From an uncultured Flavobacteriaceae bacterium (GTDB taxonomy: Bacteria > Bacteroidota > Bacteroidia > Flavobacteriales > Flavobacteriaceae), in the NCBI GenBank assembly GCA_947500385.1, contig CANMSA010000007.1, positions 180,929 to 239,550 of the forward strand: a stretch of 58,622 nt of DNA. The letters run 5' to 3'. Within the stretch, counting starts at the first letter, position 1. Every line of letters starts with the position of its first letter. Made by a program: the position numbers and the translations under genes. Positions 46,722 to 49,937 of this stretch are shown here, in pieces. The notes under the pieces are model-generated. The model did no database searches and was not told the origin of the DNA. It worked only from the letters and a program-made list of their open reading frames with translations.

Positions 46722-49700
46722 ATGCAGTACGATTTTAATTCCATAGAGGCCAAGTGGCAAAAATATTGGGCCGAAAACCAAACTTTCAAGGCGGAAGATA
46801 CTTCTGAAAAAGAAAAGTTTTACGTGTTGGATATGTTTCCCTATCCCTCGGGTGCGGGGCTGCATGTGGGGCATCCGTTGGGGTATATTGCCAGTGATAT
46901 TTATGCGCGTTACAAGCGGCACAAAGGCTTTAATGTGCTGCATCCCCAAGGATACGATTCCTTTGGTTTGCCAGCAGAGCAGTATGCCATTCAAACAGGA
47001 CAGCATCCCGCAATCACCACAGAAACCAATATTAAAAGATATCGTGAACAACTAGATAAAATTGGGTTTTCGTTTGATTGGAGCCGGGAAGTGCGTACCT
47101 CGGATCCAAACTATTATAAATGGACGCAGTGGATCTTTATACAGTTGTTCAATTCCTGGTACAATAAAAAAAGCGACAAAGCGGAGGACATTGAAACCTT
47201 GGTGACGGCCTTCGAACAGGATGGAAATTCTCAGATCGATGCTATTTGTGATGATGCCATTCCTCCTTTTACGGCCGCGGAATGGACGGCATTTTCCAAG
47301 GTAGAAAAGCAAGAGGTATTGCTAAAGTACCGCCTGACCTATCTGGCCGAAACCGAAGTAAATTGGTGTCCGGCCCTAGGTACCGTATTGGCCAATGATG
47401 AAATCGTAAACGGCGTTTCTGAACGAGGCGGGCATCCCGTAATTCGAAAGAAAATGACCCAATGGAGCATGCGCATCTCGGCCTACGCACAGCGTTTGTT
47501 AGATGGGTTGAATGGTATTGACTGGCCGCAACCCTTGAAAGATTCGCAAACCAATTGGATCGGCCGAAGCGTAGGGGCAAGTGTTACCTTTAAAATCCTC
47601 CCCCCGACCCCCTCCAAAGGAGAGGGAGTTCCTGGTTATATGACTGGCGGGAACAATTCACATTTATTGCTTGAAAAGGCAAAAGAAATGAGAAAAAACC
47701 CTACAAAGGCCGAAGCTGCACTCTGGGAAAGACTTCGGGCAAAAAAGCGTGGGTATAAATTTAGGCAACAACATTTAATAGATGATTTCATTGTTGATTT
47801 TGTCTGTCTGAGAAAAAACCTTGTTATTGAAGTAGATGGTGGTATACACAATTCTCAAATAGCGGAAGACGAAGCAAGGACCAAAAGACTGAATGATTTG
47901 GGATTTCAGGTAATTCGCTTTAAAAACGAGGAGGTTCTTAGTGATTCGGACGCTGTCGTTTCAGCAATTCTCGAAAACCTTGAAAAAGTACAAATACCCC
48001 CTTCGGGGGCTGGGGGAATCGATGTATTCACCACCCGTCCCGATACCATTTTTGGAGTGAGCTTTATGACCTTGGCCCCCGAGCACGAATTGGTGGCCAA
48101 CATTACGACTGCAGCCCAAAAAGAAGCGGTTGACGCCTATATTGAAAGTACGGCAAAGCGATCGGAACGAGATCGTATGGCCGATGTAAAAACGATTACA
48201 GGGGCCTTTACCGGTGCTTTTGCAGAACACCCATTTACCAAAGAACCCATTCCGATTTGGATCGGGGATTATGTGTTGGCCGGCTATGGTACCGGGGCGG
48301 TGATGTCCGTACCCTGCGGGGATCAGCGTGATTATGATTTTGCCAAGCATTTTAATATCCCCATTCCGAATGTATTTGAGGGCATTGATATTTCTGAGGA
48401 AGCCTTTGCCGATAAAGGGAATACCGTTATTGCAAATTCCGATTTCTTGAACGGTCTCCCTTATAAAAAGGCGGTGAAACGGGCTATTTTTGAATTGGAA
48501 CAACTGGGACAGGGCAAAGGAAAAGTAAACTACCGTTTGCGCGATGCGGTCTTTAGCCGTCAACGCTATTGGGGCGAACCCTTTCCCGTGTACTATGTAG
48601 ATGGAATGCCGCAGATGATCGCTGCCAAGCATTTGCCCATTGCCCTGCCCGAAGTGGAGAAGTATTTGCCAACCGAAACGGGAGAGCCGCCTTTGGGGAA
48701 TGCGACCCATTGGGCCTGGGATACCGAGACATCGCAGGTGGTCGATAATGCGTTGATCGATCATCAAACCATCTTTCCGTTGGAGTTGAATACGATGCCC
48801 GGCTGGGCCGGTAGTTCCCAGTACTTTAATCGGTATATGGACCCGCACAATGAAAACGAGATTTTCTCGCAAGCCGCCATTGATTATTGGCAAGAAGTGG
48901 ATCTGTACATTGGGGGTAGCGAACATGCTACCGGTCATTTATTGTACGCCCGTTTTTGGCAAAAATTCATGTTCGATAGAGGATGGGTGCCCAAGGACGA
49001 ATTTGCCAAAAAACTGATCAACCAGGGGATGATTACGGGGACGAGTGCTTTTGTTTATAGGGAAGATGATACGGGAAACATTATTTCAAAGGGATTATTG
49101 TCGGGAAAAAAAGTATCGCCGATACATGCAGATGTGTCCCTTGTCAATAGTTCTGATGAGTTGGATGTAGACGGTTTCAAAAAATGGCAGCCCGATTATA
49201 CGGATGCCGAATTTGTGCTGGAGGATGGGAAGTACATCGTAGGCCGTGAGGTCGAAAAAATGTCCAAATCCAAATACAACGTCGTCAACCCCGATGAGAT
49301 TTGTGAACAATACGGGGCCGATAGTCTGCGTTTGTACGAAATGTTCCTAGGGCCTTTGGAGCAATCAAAGCCATGGAATACGGCCGGGATTACGGGCGTA
49401 CACGGCTTTCTAAAGAAATTGTGGAAGTTGTATTTTGATGCAAGCGGCAGCAAGGTATCAGATGCCGGGCCTACGGCCGAAAACTTGAAAACCCTGCACA
49501 AGACCATCAAAAAAGTTGAGGACGATATCGCGAACTTTAGTTTCAATACCTCGGTCTCCACCTTTATGATCTGTGTCAACGAACTTACCGCCCAAAAATG
49601 TGCCAGTCGTGCCATATTAAGTCCGTTGGCCATTTTGGTTTCTCCCTATGCACCGCATATTGCCGAAGAACTTTGGGAACAATTGGGACATTCTGAATCG

Positions 49701-49937
49701 ATTTCGACCGCTCCGTTTCCGGTGTTTGACCCGAAACATTTGGTAGAAAGTAGCAAGGAATATCCCATATCCTTCAATGGTAAAATGCGGTTTAAGCTAT
49801 CCTTACCCGCAGATATGGAAAAAGAAGCAATCGAAGCGGCTGTGATGGCGCATGAAAAAACCCTGGAACAATTGCAGGGACGTACGCCCAAAAAGGTCAT
49901 AGTAGTGCCGGGTAAAATTGTGAATATCGTAGGCTAA
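46722..49937 (+). CDS. leuS: Leucyl-tRNA synthetase with an in-frame DUF559 nuclease insertion
   Basis: 1071 residues, about 140 longer than the enzyme without the insertion. It charges tRNA-Leu with leucine. The HIGH-type motif is HVGH (about residue 48), the KMSKS loop is EKMSKSKYN (about 846-850), and the CP1 editing domain begins at IDVFTTRPDTIFG. The extra segment, residues about 293-432 (nt 47598-48017), is a DUF559 endonuclease-fold domain lying between the catalytic core and the start of the editing domain, with no frame break. I chose the ATG at 46722 because it gives MQYDFNSIEAKWQKYW, the usual N-terminus. The downstream segments (KMSKS and C-terminal TF binding region) are intact, so the enzyme is probably active with the domain attached. 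Confidence 0.97.
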   Translation: MQYDFNSIEAKWQKYWAENQTFKAEDTSEKEKFYVLDMFPYPSGAGLHVGHPLGYIASDIYARYKRHKGFNVLHPQGYDSFGLPAEQYAIQTGQHPAITTETNIKRYREQLDKIGFSFDWSREVRTSDPNYYKWTQWIFIQLFNSWYNKKSDKAEDIETLVTAFEQDGNSQIDAICDDAIPPFTAAEWTAFSKVEKQEVLLKYRLTYLAETEVNWCPALGTVLANDEIVNGVSERGGHPVIRKKMTQWSMRISAYAQRLLDGLNGIDWPQPLKDSQTNWIGRSVGASVTFKILPPTPSKGEGVPGYMTGGNNSHLLLEKAKEMRKNPTKAEAALWERLRAKKRGYKFRQQHLIDDFIVDFVCLRKNLVIEVDGGIHNSQIAEDEARTKRLNDLGFQVIRFKNEEVLSDSDAVVSAILENLEKVQIPPSGAGGIDVFTTRPDTIFGVSFMTLAPEHELVANITTAAQKEAVDAYIESTAKRSERDRMADVKTITGAFTGAFAEHPFTKEPIPIWIGDYVLAGYGTGAVMSVPCGDQRDYDFAKHFNIPIPNVFEGIDISEEAFADKGNTVIANSDFLNGLPYKKAVKRAIFELEQLGQGKGKVNYRLRDAVFSRQRYWGEPFPVYYVDGMPQMIAAKHLPIALPEVEKYLPTETGEPPLGNATHWAWDTETSQVVDNALIDHQTIFPLELNTMPGWAGSSQYFNRYMDPHNENEIFSQAAIDYWQEVDLYIGGSEHATGHLLYARFWQKFMFDRGWVPKDEFAKKLINQGMITGTSAFVYREDDTGNIISKGLLSGKKVSPIHADVSLVNSSDELDVDGFKKWQPDYTDAEFVLEDGKYIVGREVEKMSKSKYNVVNPDEICEQYGADSLRLYEMFLGPLEQSKPWNTAGITGVHGFLKKLWKLYFDASGSKVSDAGPTAENLKTLHKTIKKVEDDIANFSFNTSVSTFMICVNELTAQKCASRAILSPLAILVSPYAPHIAEELWEQLGHSESISTAPFPVFDPKHLVESSKEYPISFNGKMRFKLSLPADMEKEAIEAAVMAHEKTLEQLQGRTPKKVIVVPGKIVNIVG
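47598..48017 (+). mobile_element. DUF559 element inserted in frame in leuS
   Basis: 420 bp (a multiple of three). It codes for a restriction-endonuclease-fold domain: KNPTKAEAALWERLRAK, then RQQHLIDDFIVDFVC and LVIEVDGGIHNSQ, the E-x-D-G type active site of DUF559. The ends are rich in C and G and resemble each other as inverted repeats: on the left CCCCCCGACCCCCTCC with a hairpin around AAAGGAG, on the right, read on the other strand, TTCCCCCAGCCCCC with AAGGGGG. Short DUF559 genes flanked by such repeats are, to my recollection, dispersed in Bacteroidetes genomes. There are no intein splicing motifs. Confidence 0.75.

Follow-up and report, generated by a model that had tools for sequence, protein, structure and literature searches.

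An in-frame element with REP-like palindromic ends and a DUF559 nuclease domain in flavobacterial leucyl-tRNA synthetase: a putative homing-like mobile element

Introduction

Inteins and self-splicing introns are the textbook routes by which a homing nuclease comes to reside in an essential gene, and inteins with homing endonucleases lie in frame at fixed spots of essential genes with a patchy, horizontal distribution. In the account used here, the cutting of empty alleles is the means by which homing nucleases drive copying, and the EDxHD homing endonuclease I-Bth0305I (PDB 3r3p) is presented as a "mobile intron protein" that has an extended region for DNA binding (PMC3943268). Two kinds of palindromic DNA are also relevant. 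Rickettsia palindromic elements (RPEs), as summarized in the review drawn on, are about 150 bp long, lie in frame in many unrelated functional genes, are read through and encode a conserved peptide (Ogata et al., as reviewed in PMC10969869). REP palindromes and their REPIN arrangements are associated with RAYT (TnpA-REP) transposases, and in the description used the CGTC-type REPs are without a dedicated transposase (Di Nocera 2013, PMC3733652).

The element analyzed here lies in a window of 58,622 bp (the whole stretch of DNA under study) from an uncultured Flavobacteriaceae bacterium, inside the gene of leucyl-tRNA synthetase (LeuRS). Like the RPEs it is palindromic DNA in frame in a functional gene; it is about 420 bp long with a nuclease ORF, whereas an RPE is a peptide-coding unit of about 150 bp with no nuclease gene in the description used (PMC10969869), and each DUF559 element lineage mostly keeps one gene site. 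With the REP/REPIN and RAYT systems it shares a pair of inverted hairpins with tails, dispersed palindrome-only units (in genome G181; none in the genome of the window) and one enzyme-carrying copy. However, its enzyme is a PD-(D/E)XK, Vsr-like nuclease and not an HUH tyrosine transposase such as RAYT, no Y1_Tnp domain is found in the element, its ends are C/G runs in which a GTAG tag was not noticed, and many copies lie in frame in housekeeping genes. The catalytic domain is homologous to that of I-Bth0305I, but the 140-residue insert shows no intron and no such long DNA-binding region. Like an intein, the element is in frame, at a fixed spot, and patchy and horizontal in distribution, and it differs in having no Hint or splicing domain in the insert and in being predicted to remain a folded separate domain. 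Vsr and standalone DUF559 proteins such as Caulobacter VsrA share the nuclease fold but are free genes, whereas the in-gene copies are stop-free up to the 3' palindrome. A classical insertion sequence would encode a known transposase family, and none is found in the window insert.

Because inteins, REP/RAYT systems and RPEs each fail one defining test (the splicing domain, the Y1 enzyme, and the lack of an enzyme gene in the RPE description, respectively), the element is called a new kind here. It works like a homing element, with same-site occupancy and a patchy, horizontal distribution, and resembles a REPIN that encloses a nuclease; it may also be viewed as a form of homing element. No description of these elements, and no joint mention of DUF559 and "leucyl-tRNA synthetase", was found in the literature searched, which covered few subscription papers and preprints.

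Results

An in-frame insertion at the start of the CP1 editing domain

The LeuRS frame extends from the ATG at 46722 to the stop codon ending at 49937, and profile searches, the queries of which started one codon past the ATG, place the leuS_bact and DUF559 matches in one open frame (Table 1). In LeuRS sequences without DUF559, 39-99 nt separate the motifs "WIGRSxGA" and "FTTRPDT", as compared with 447 nt in the window, where the protein is about 134 residues longer than it would be with a loop of the commonest length (45 nt). The insertion point is a variable loop, right where the CP1 editing domain begins. The common frame and the loop comparison bear out the original prediction from the window sequence, which had proposed an in-frame insertion of 420 bp that adds about 140 residues next to CP1. 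The genome of the window, a draft of 123 contigs with a completeness of 99.86% (tool estimate), contains a single LeuRS match, so the insert-bearing enzyme presumably works.

Table 1. Features of the element and its host gene in the window.
Feature	Position	Strand	Remarks
leuS (LeuRS host gene)	46722..49937	+	1071 aa including the insert; TIGR00396 leuS_bact E 3.3e-267
Whole element (palindrome, DUF559, inverted palindrome)	47597..48017	+	about 420 bp, open in the LeuRS frame throughout; from comparison with DUF559-free LeuRS loops
5' REP-like palindrome, C-rich tail and hairpin CCCTCC-AAA-GGAGAGGG	47597..47628	+	codes a linker of low predicted confidence
DUF559 nuclease domain, PD-(D/E)XK / Vsr-like, ExDGxxH intact	47673..47984	+	PF04480 E 3.1e-35 (insert segment alone)
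3' REP-like palindrome, inverted, hairpin CCCCC-TTC-GGGGG and G-rich tail	47997..48017	-	residues 422-429, pLDDT <50
Conserved LeuRS motif FTTRPDT, fixed landmark of the insertion site	48027..48047	+	just 3' of the insert

LeuRS frames in the family are mostly 836-993 aa long among the matches listed, and eleven of those listed exceed 1000 aa. Additionally, a DNA search of two congeners reveals no copy of the element, and related elements are present in many other genes; the segment is therefore not one that all LeuRS of the family carry vertically with no relatives elsewhere. A near-identical insert (98% aa) is present in a second record, the MAG L163, and LeuRS inserts are also found in cultured strains (Cellulophaga baltica, Pustulibacterium marinum and Psychroflexus are examples of cultured carriers) and single-contig genomes, which argues that the reading frame is no assembly artefact.

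Several other occupants of the same loop are observed. The LeuRS of L120 (G269), with 1081 aa, contains a 444-nt segment without recognizable palindromes that is possibly a decaying element. In L121 (G225), where the motif spacing is 114 nt, the same spot is taken by a palindrome insert that lacks DUF559, and L122 (G266) contains a different short insert that codes LYGETLKQVQGDASSASQ. In L053 (G023) a DUF559 lineage with a repeated stretch near the 3' end of the insert is a separate invader of this loop.

The insert encodes a conserved DUF559 nuclease domain

The PF04480 profile matches the full LeuRS frame with an E-value of 1.1e-33, and the match to the insert segment alone covers profile positions 5-109 of 109 at 120.8 bits (curated cut-off 20.6). 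The motif EVDG is found in the window insert. In all 26 aligned LeuRS the E, D, G and H residues of ExDGxxH are invariant, and in all 23 aligned inserts the same is true of the active-site D and the E-x-D-G-x-x-H pattern. The complete DUF559 pattern with an EVDG site, as originally described, is thus present. A profile of 12 LeuRS inserts (A1) matches PDB entry 3hrl (E 1.3e-28) and the mobile-intron endonuclease I-Bth0305I (3r3p, E 3.1e-7), and the same structures are the top Foldseek matches of the predicted domain (pLDDT 87; ranks 1-3, with E 1.9e-4 for I-Bth0305I), with Vsr weaker at ranks 5 and 9 (E 0.015 and 0.021). In the model of LeuRS (mean pLDDT 80; residues counted from after the initial Met), the nuclease domain at residues 312-421 is folded, and the palindrome-coded residues 295-309 and 422-429 (pLDDT <50) are among four low-confidence segments. 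The insert is predicted to stay as a folded, separate domain of LeuRS.

Profile searches of the insert detect DUF559 and MTES_1575 only, with no intein/Hint domain, no Y1_Tnp and no known transposase family; the original prediction, which likened the element to inteins in spirit but saw no splicing motifs in it, agrees with the missing Hint domain. Among the 40 closest pairs, wherever dN/dS could be computed, its value for the insert is 0.02-0.24 (86-87 codons), which points to purifying selection on the nuclease, and a DNA-cutting enzyme is the likely product of the element. A defence role was also considered; a PADLOC search yields weak matches only (best E 0.011).

Palindromic ends in opposite orientation

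The edges of the palindromes in the window were read from the sequence, and the behaviour of the edges was seen in a species pair (L166/L168, below). The C/G-rich inverted repeat that had been noted at the ends is found at 47599-47611 and 48005-48017 (13 nt, 85% complementary), with a short hairpin beside each arm. Most in-gene copies that were read consist of a 5' tail and hairpin and a 3' hairpin and tail in the opposite sense, and outside Flavobacteriaceae the ends are often CCTCACCCC-ACCCTCTCC-GGAGAGGG and its inverse. The stability of the two hairpins in the window is no greater than that of shuffles (z -0.04 and -0.16); among the four stretches folded, the fourth of which (L248) lay outside the palindrome, only the 5' palindrome of G181 stands out (z -3.1).

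The cleanest of the end tests is the search for C and G runs. Both at least 9 C in 16 nt within 170 bp upstream and at least 9 G in 16 nt within 170 bp downstream are present in 51 of the 62 in-gene DUF559 copies examined, as compared with 8.9% (C) and 12% (G) of 1024 control windows; eleven copies fail, including those in HisD (L045), IleRS (L058) and HemD (L071). The flanks also show an excess of the opposite base (at the same level in 21 and 30 of the 62 copies), as expected from the C arm and the G arm of each palindrome. A plain inverted-repeat alignment of the 5' and 3' flanks gives a weak signal: all 50 shuffles are beaten by 31 of 70 copies and the best far control by 20 of 70, and the window copy beats neither. 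What the two palindromes have in common is mainly their layout, their sequences being divergent, and this test is therefore too weak to carry the case. Hairpins score above the best of 20 shuffles in 36 of 62 copies at each end (26 at both ends). Against random windows, among which the flanks of the elements themselves were included, only 26 of 62 copies at each end pass the 95% level. No consistent target-site duplication is evident in a by-eye inspection of the LeuRS loops, the L166/L168 alignment and the G181 units. In the standalone DUF559 copies a stop codon lies 3-10 codons past the domain (8 of 8 examined), whereas the in-gene copies, which were chosen for long open frames, contain no stop before the 3' palindrome.

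Related copies in other host genes and genomes

PF04480 matches are present in 143 of 299 sampled genomes of the family and 222 of 395 of the phylum, and at least 18 of the 299 carry in-frame LeuRS copies. For closer inspection, 40 stretches were taken round 41 long-frame family matches listed (a few of those listed were omitted), together with 20 phylum stretches; because these were selected for long open frames, they do not measure the frequency of in-gene DUF559. The in-frame hosts in these stretches are LeuRS, MetH, RecG, IleRS, HsdR, HsdM, Eco57I-type R-M proteins, RecB-like helicases, CoA mutase, HisD and HemD, with nine profile-checked (23 host proteins overall, in addition to a reading of hosts by eye). 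The R-M proteins of other Bacteroidota (HsdR, HsdM and others; L145-L147, L149, L151, L153-L155, L161 and L162) contain the same kind of element, often at recurrent spots. Two copies in one MetH (G215) are 81% identical over 426 nt.

The A1 profile identifies 521 relatives in named genomes, from which 80 loci were kept. In all 80 the copy lies within a larger host ORF, namely LeuRS (47), RecG (8), ValRS (5), RecB-like helicase (5), IleRS (3), MetRS (3), epimerase (3) and six others with one each; the L168 locus also contains a second, standalone copy. The hosts added by the named genomes are ValRS, MetRS, acetyl-CoA synthetase, RecJ, PurL, guanylate kinase, epimerases and CoA transferase (14 representatives profile-checked). 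LeuRS copies are also present in Prevotella, in Dysgonomonas and in two MAGs under the record names Ca. Staskawiczbacteria (L207) and Ca. Nomurabacteria (L215), both of them Patescibacteria. Among plasmids 39 records match, all below 60% identity, and among phages 2, with no vehicle close to the lineage of the window. Within the genome of the window, the element is single copy in a DNA search, so the check suggested with the original prediction, for the same repeat-flanked element elsewhere in this genome, is negative. A second, weak partial DUF559 match (22 bits) is located in a 172-aa frame elsewhere in this genome (L002, G000:C2:89568-89696).

Fixed sites and conflict between element and host trees

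The copies mostly occupy one site per gene: 16 of 16 in RecG, 5 of 5 in ValRS, 6 of 6 in RecB-like proteins, 3 of 3 in Eco57I-type proteins, 11 of 12 in MetH and, by both landmarks, 4 of 5 in HsdR. In LeuRS, 63 of 65 rows (six of which repeat genomes already included) lie between WIGRSxGA-like and TTRPDT-like motifs; of the exceptions, L174 missed one landmark pattern and L233 uses a second LeuRS site, where L160, outside the 65 rows, is also located. The ValRS copies (L223, L224, L236, L239 and L240) lie directly before ATTRPET, a position apparently homologous to that of FTTRPDT in LeuRS.

In the element tree of 70 rows, the host-site label changes 17 times (minimum 16; shuffled mean 47.2), and the copies in this tree group by host-gene site, not by organism. 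The MetH copies, which come from four families, fall together in a single group (93/88), and the copies of genomes with two hosts (G125, G146, G215, G248 and G554) are found in different groups. The LeuRS inserts are mostly one lineage (17 of 18 rows, plus one RecB-like row within). The IleRS copy of G248 is a neighbour of the RecG group, and one HsdR copy stands apart on a long branch.

In the LeuRS host tree of 58 rows (18 inserted, 39 empty and 1 long degenerate), the carriers are scattered: the insert state changes 14 times against a shuffled mean of 15.5, and 111 of 500 shuffles are equally low. In AU tests of groups that were picked after the trees were seen, the inserts of L047 and L048 are rejected as sisters (p 0.00026), whereas their hosts are sisters (97, starred, in one tree and 91/89, unstarred, in the other). 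For the hosts, the tests reject both the grouping seen in the insert clade L047-L050-L051-L054 (100/98; p 0.0008) and that of the insert pair L033/L036 (p 1.6e-12); the support of this insert pair is unstable (99/85 in one tree and 58/59 in another).

Apparent recent transfer between species

In several pairs the silent divergence of the insert is far below that of its host: dS is 0.06 versus 0.80 in Dokdonia L166/L168 (uncultured assemblies), 0.08 versus 0.58 in the Psychroflexus strains L191/L196, 0.13 versus 0.63 in Lutibacter L172/L175 and 0.33 versus 2.10 in L176/L186. The 417-bp element of L166 and L168 differs at 6 positions and the adjoining 100 bp at 15 positions on each side; identity is 96-100% in bins of the insert and 78-92% in the flanks from the first 100 bp outward. 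Divergence is restored in the first 100 bp at either end, so the element was not exchanged together with long flanks, and no co-conversion tracts are visible in these flanks; other pairs are mixed. The contrast is less clean in L172/L175 and missing in L048/L033 and L044/L043, which indicates that local vertical inheritance also occurs. The horizontal mobility of the element is well supported by these sequence comparisons, and the view first put forward, of a mobile element in an essential gene, gains from the related copies in many genes, the tree conflict and the near-identical inserts in diverged genes.

Palindrome-only units and Y1 transposases

A 30-mer of the G181 palindrome has 13 hits in that genome (≤3 mismatches), as compared with 0 for the reversed-pattern control, and G181 contains one DUF559 match. 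The same 30-mer has 3 hits in G131 (one in its LeuRS element), 1 in G125 and none in 7 other genomes searched, including that of the window, where a search for a dispersed palindrome family likewise finds none (35 hits versus 29 for the reversed pattern). Several of the G181 units are arranged as palindrome, spacer and inverted palindrome, one of them in tandem. The LeuRS of G181 (L049/L185) contains three palindrome inserts, namely the DUF559 element, a short unit that follows it immediately and a further one just ahead of the KMSKS region, and the short inserts share the 30-mer with the DUF559 element. Y1_Tnp matches are present in G181, G215, G125 and G050, with two weak ones in the genome of the window (G000) and none in G131.

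Discussion

The element is probably a mobile one in which two inverted REP-like palindromes surround a Vsr/EDxHD-type DUF559 nuclease, which would spread in a homing-like manner and be translated as a surface domain with palindrome-coded linkers. The anatomy, recurrence, fixed sites, horizontal spread, low dN/dS and palindrome-only relatives, on which this reading builds, are features of the sequences. Insertion would preserve the reading frame and mostly use a single preferred spot in each host gene, which in this case is the LeuRS loop that opens CP1. Because the in-gene copies are stop-free throughout, the host enzyme would be translated straight through, with the palindromes read as flexible linkers and the nuclease as a surface domain of its own; the element would thus borrow the expression signals and the essentiality of its host, and splicing would not be needed. 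When the LeuRS-borne nuclease meets DNA with an empty allele, it may cut or nick at the site, and we infer both this cleavage and its specificity. By a copying chemistry that would follow such nuclease-driven homing, the palindrome-bounded unit would then be copied in with sharp edges, and palindrome-only copies would move in trans.

The insert could instead be an accessory domain of LeuRS that serves in tRNA binding, editing or regulation, was acquired once and passed on vertically, and has been lost in many lineages. The LeuRS inserts are indeed mostly one lineage, the close hosts L038, L042, L043 and L044 have matching inserts, and dN/dS is low; yet the same domain with similar palindromes is found in unrelated proteins, the insert state on the host tree is clustered no more than shuffled labels, and the trees conflict, with the dS of the insert far below that of the host in several pairs, which makes this explanation very unlikely. 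Ordinary homologous recombination, by transformation or conjugation, might also spread insert-bearing LeuRS alleles around an immobile nuclease that is tolerated or domesticated, for example for defence. Allele exchange would produce the same-site presence, and other roles have been proposed for DUF559 and Vsr-like enzymes such as Caulobacter VsrA (PMC12907096). However, the Dokdonia pair diverges within the first 100 bp on both sides, the same lineage is present in another gene (the RecB-like copy among the LeuRS copies) and at a second MetH site, and the PADLOC matches are weak, and this explanation appears unlikely.

It is also unlikely that a resident Y1 (RAYT-type) transposase moves the palindromes with DUF559 as a passenger caught between two REPs. 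The G181 units have the architecture of a REPIN, and several genomes contain Y1_Tnp matches, as described above; against this, G131 has a LeuRS element and three palindrome hits with no Y1_Tnp match, the nearest Y1 match in G181 is about 30 kb from any palindrome hit on the same contig, and DUF559 recurs between palindromes across families with a conserved active site. An assembly or binning artefact, which the 123-contig draft might raise, is hardly conceivable given the same structure at the same site in other assemblies, cultured strains and single-contig genomes, with intact frames and low dN/dS.

With the nuclease-bearing mobile element as the preferred reading, we lean towards an undescribed class of selfish element, a homing nuclease bounded by REP-like palindromes and permanently translated in aminoacyl-tRNA synthetases and other essential enzymes, each lineage of which keeps mainly to a single site of a single gene, apparently across phyla, and which may be the missing enzyme of "orphan" REP palindromes. 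It would be a candidate enzyme for one type of REP-like palindrome, and kinship with the CGTC REPs as described in the source used (PMC3733652) is not presumed. Beyond inteins and introns, the element suggests a third route, by which a stop-free insert in a variable loop keeps the host frame and is translated as one more domain; if true, the problem of hiding in an essential gene would be solved without splicing. The element would account for the "DUF559" domains inside synthetases, and it suggests that a complete foreign domain can be accommodated by several aminoacyl-tRNA synthetases. Occupied and empty alleles exist in related species and are suited to direct tests of homing.

Some copies are located at the end of the host protein. 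The HisD copy is C-terminal and the HemD copy N-terminal, for which the terminal in-frame homing endonuclease fusions of fungal mitochondrial rps3 would be a partial precedent. In L232, a DUF559 element is fused to the N-terminus of guanylate kinase, which is also a studied host of Rickettsia palindromes.
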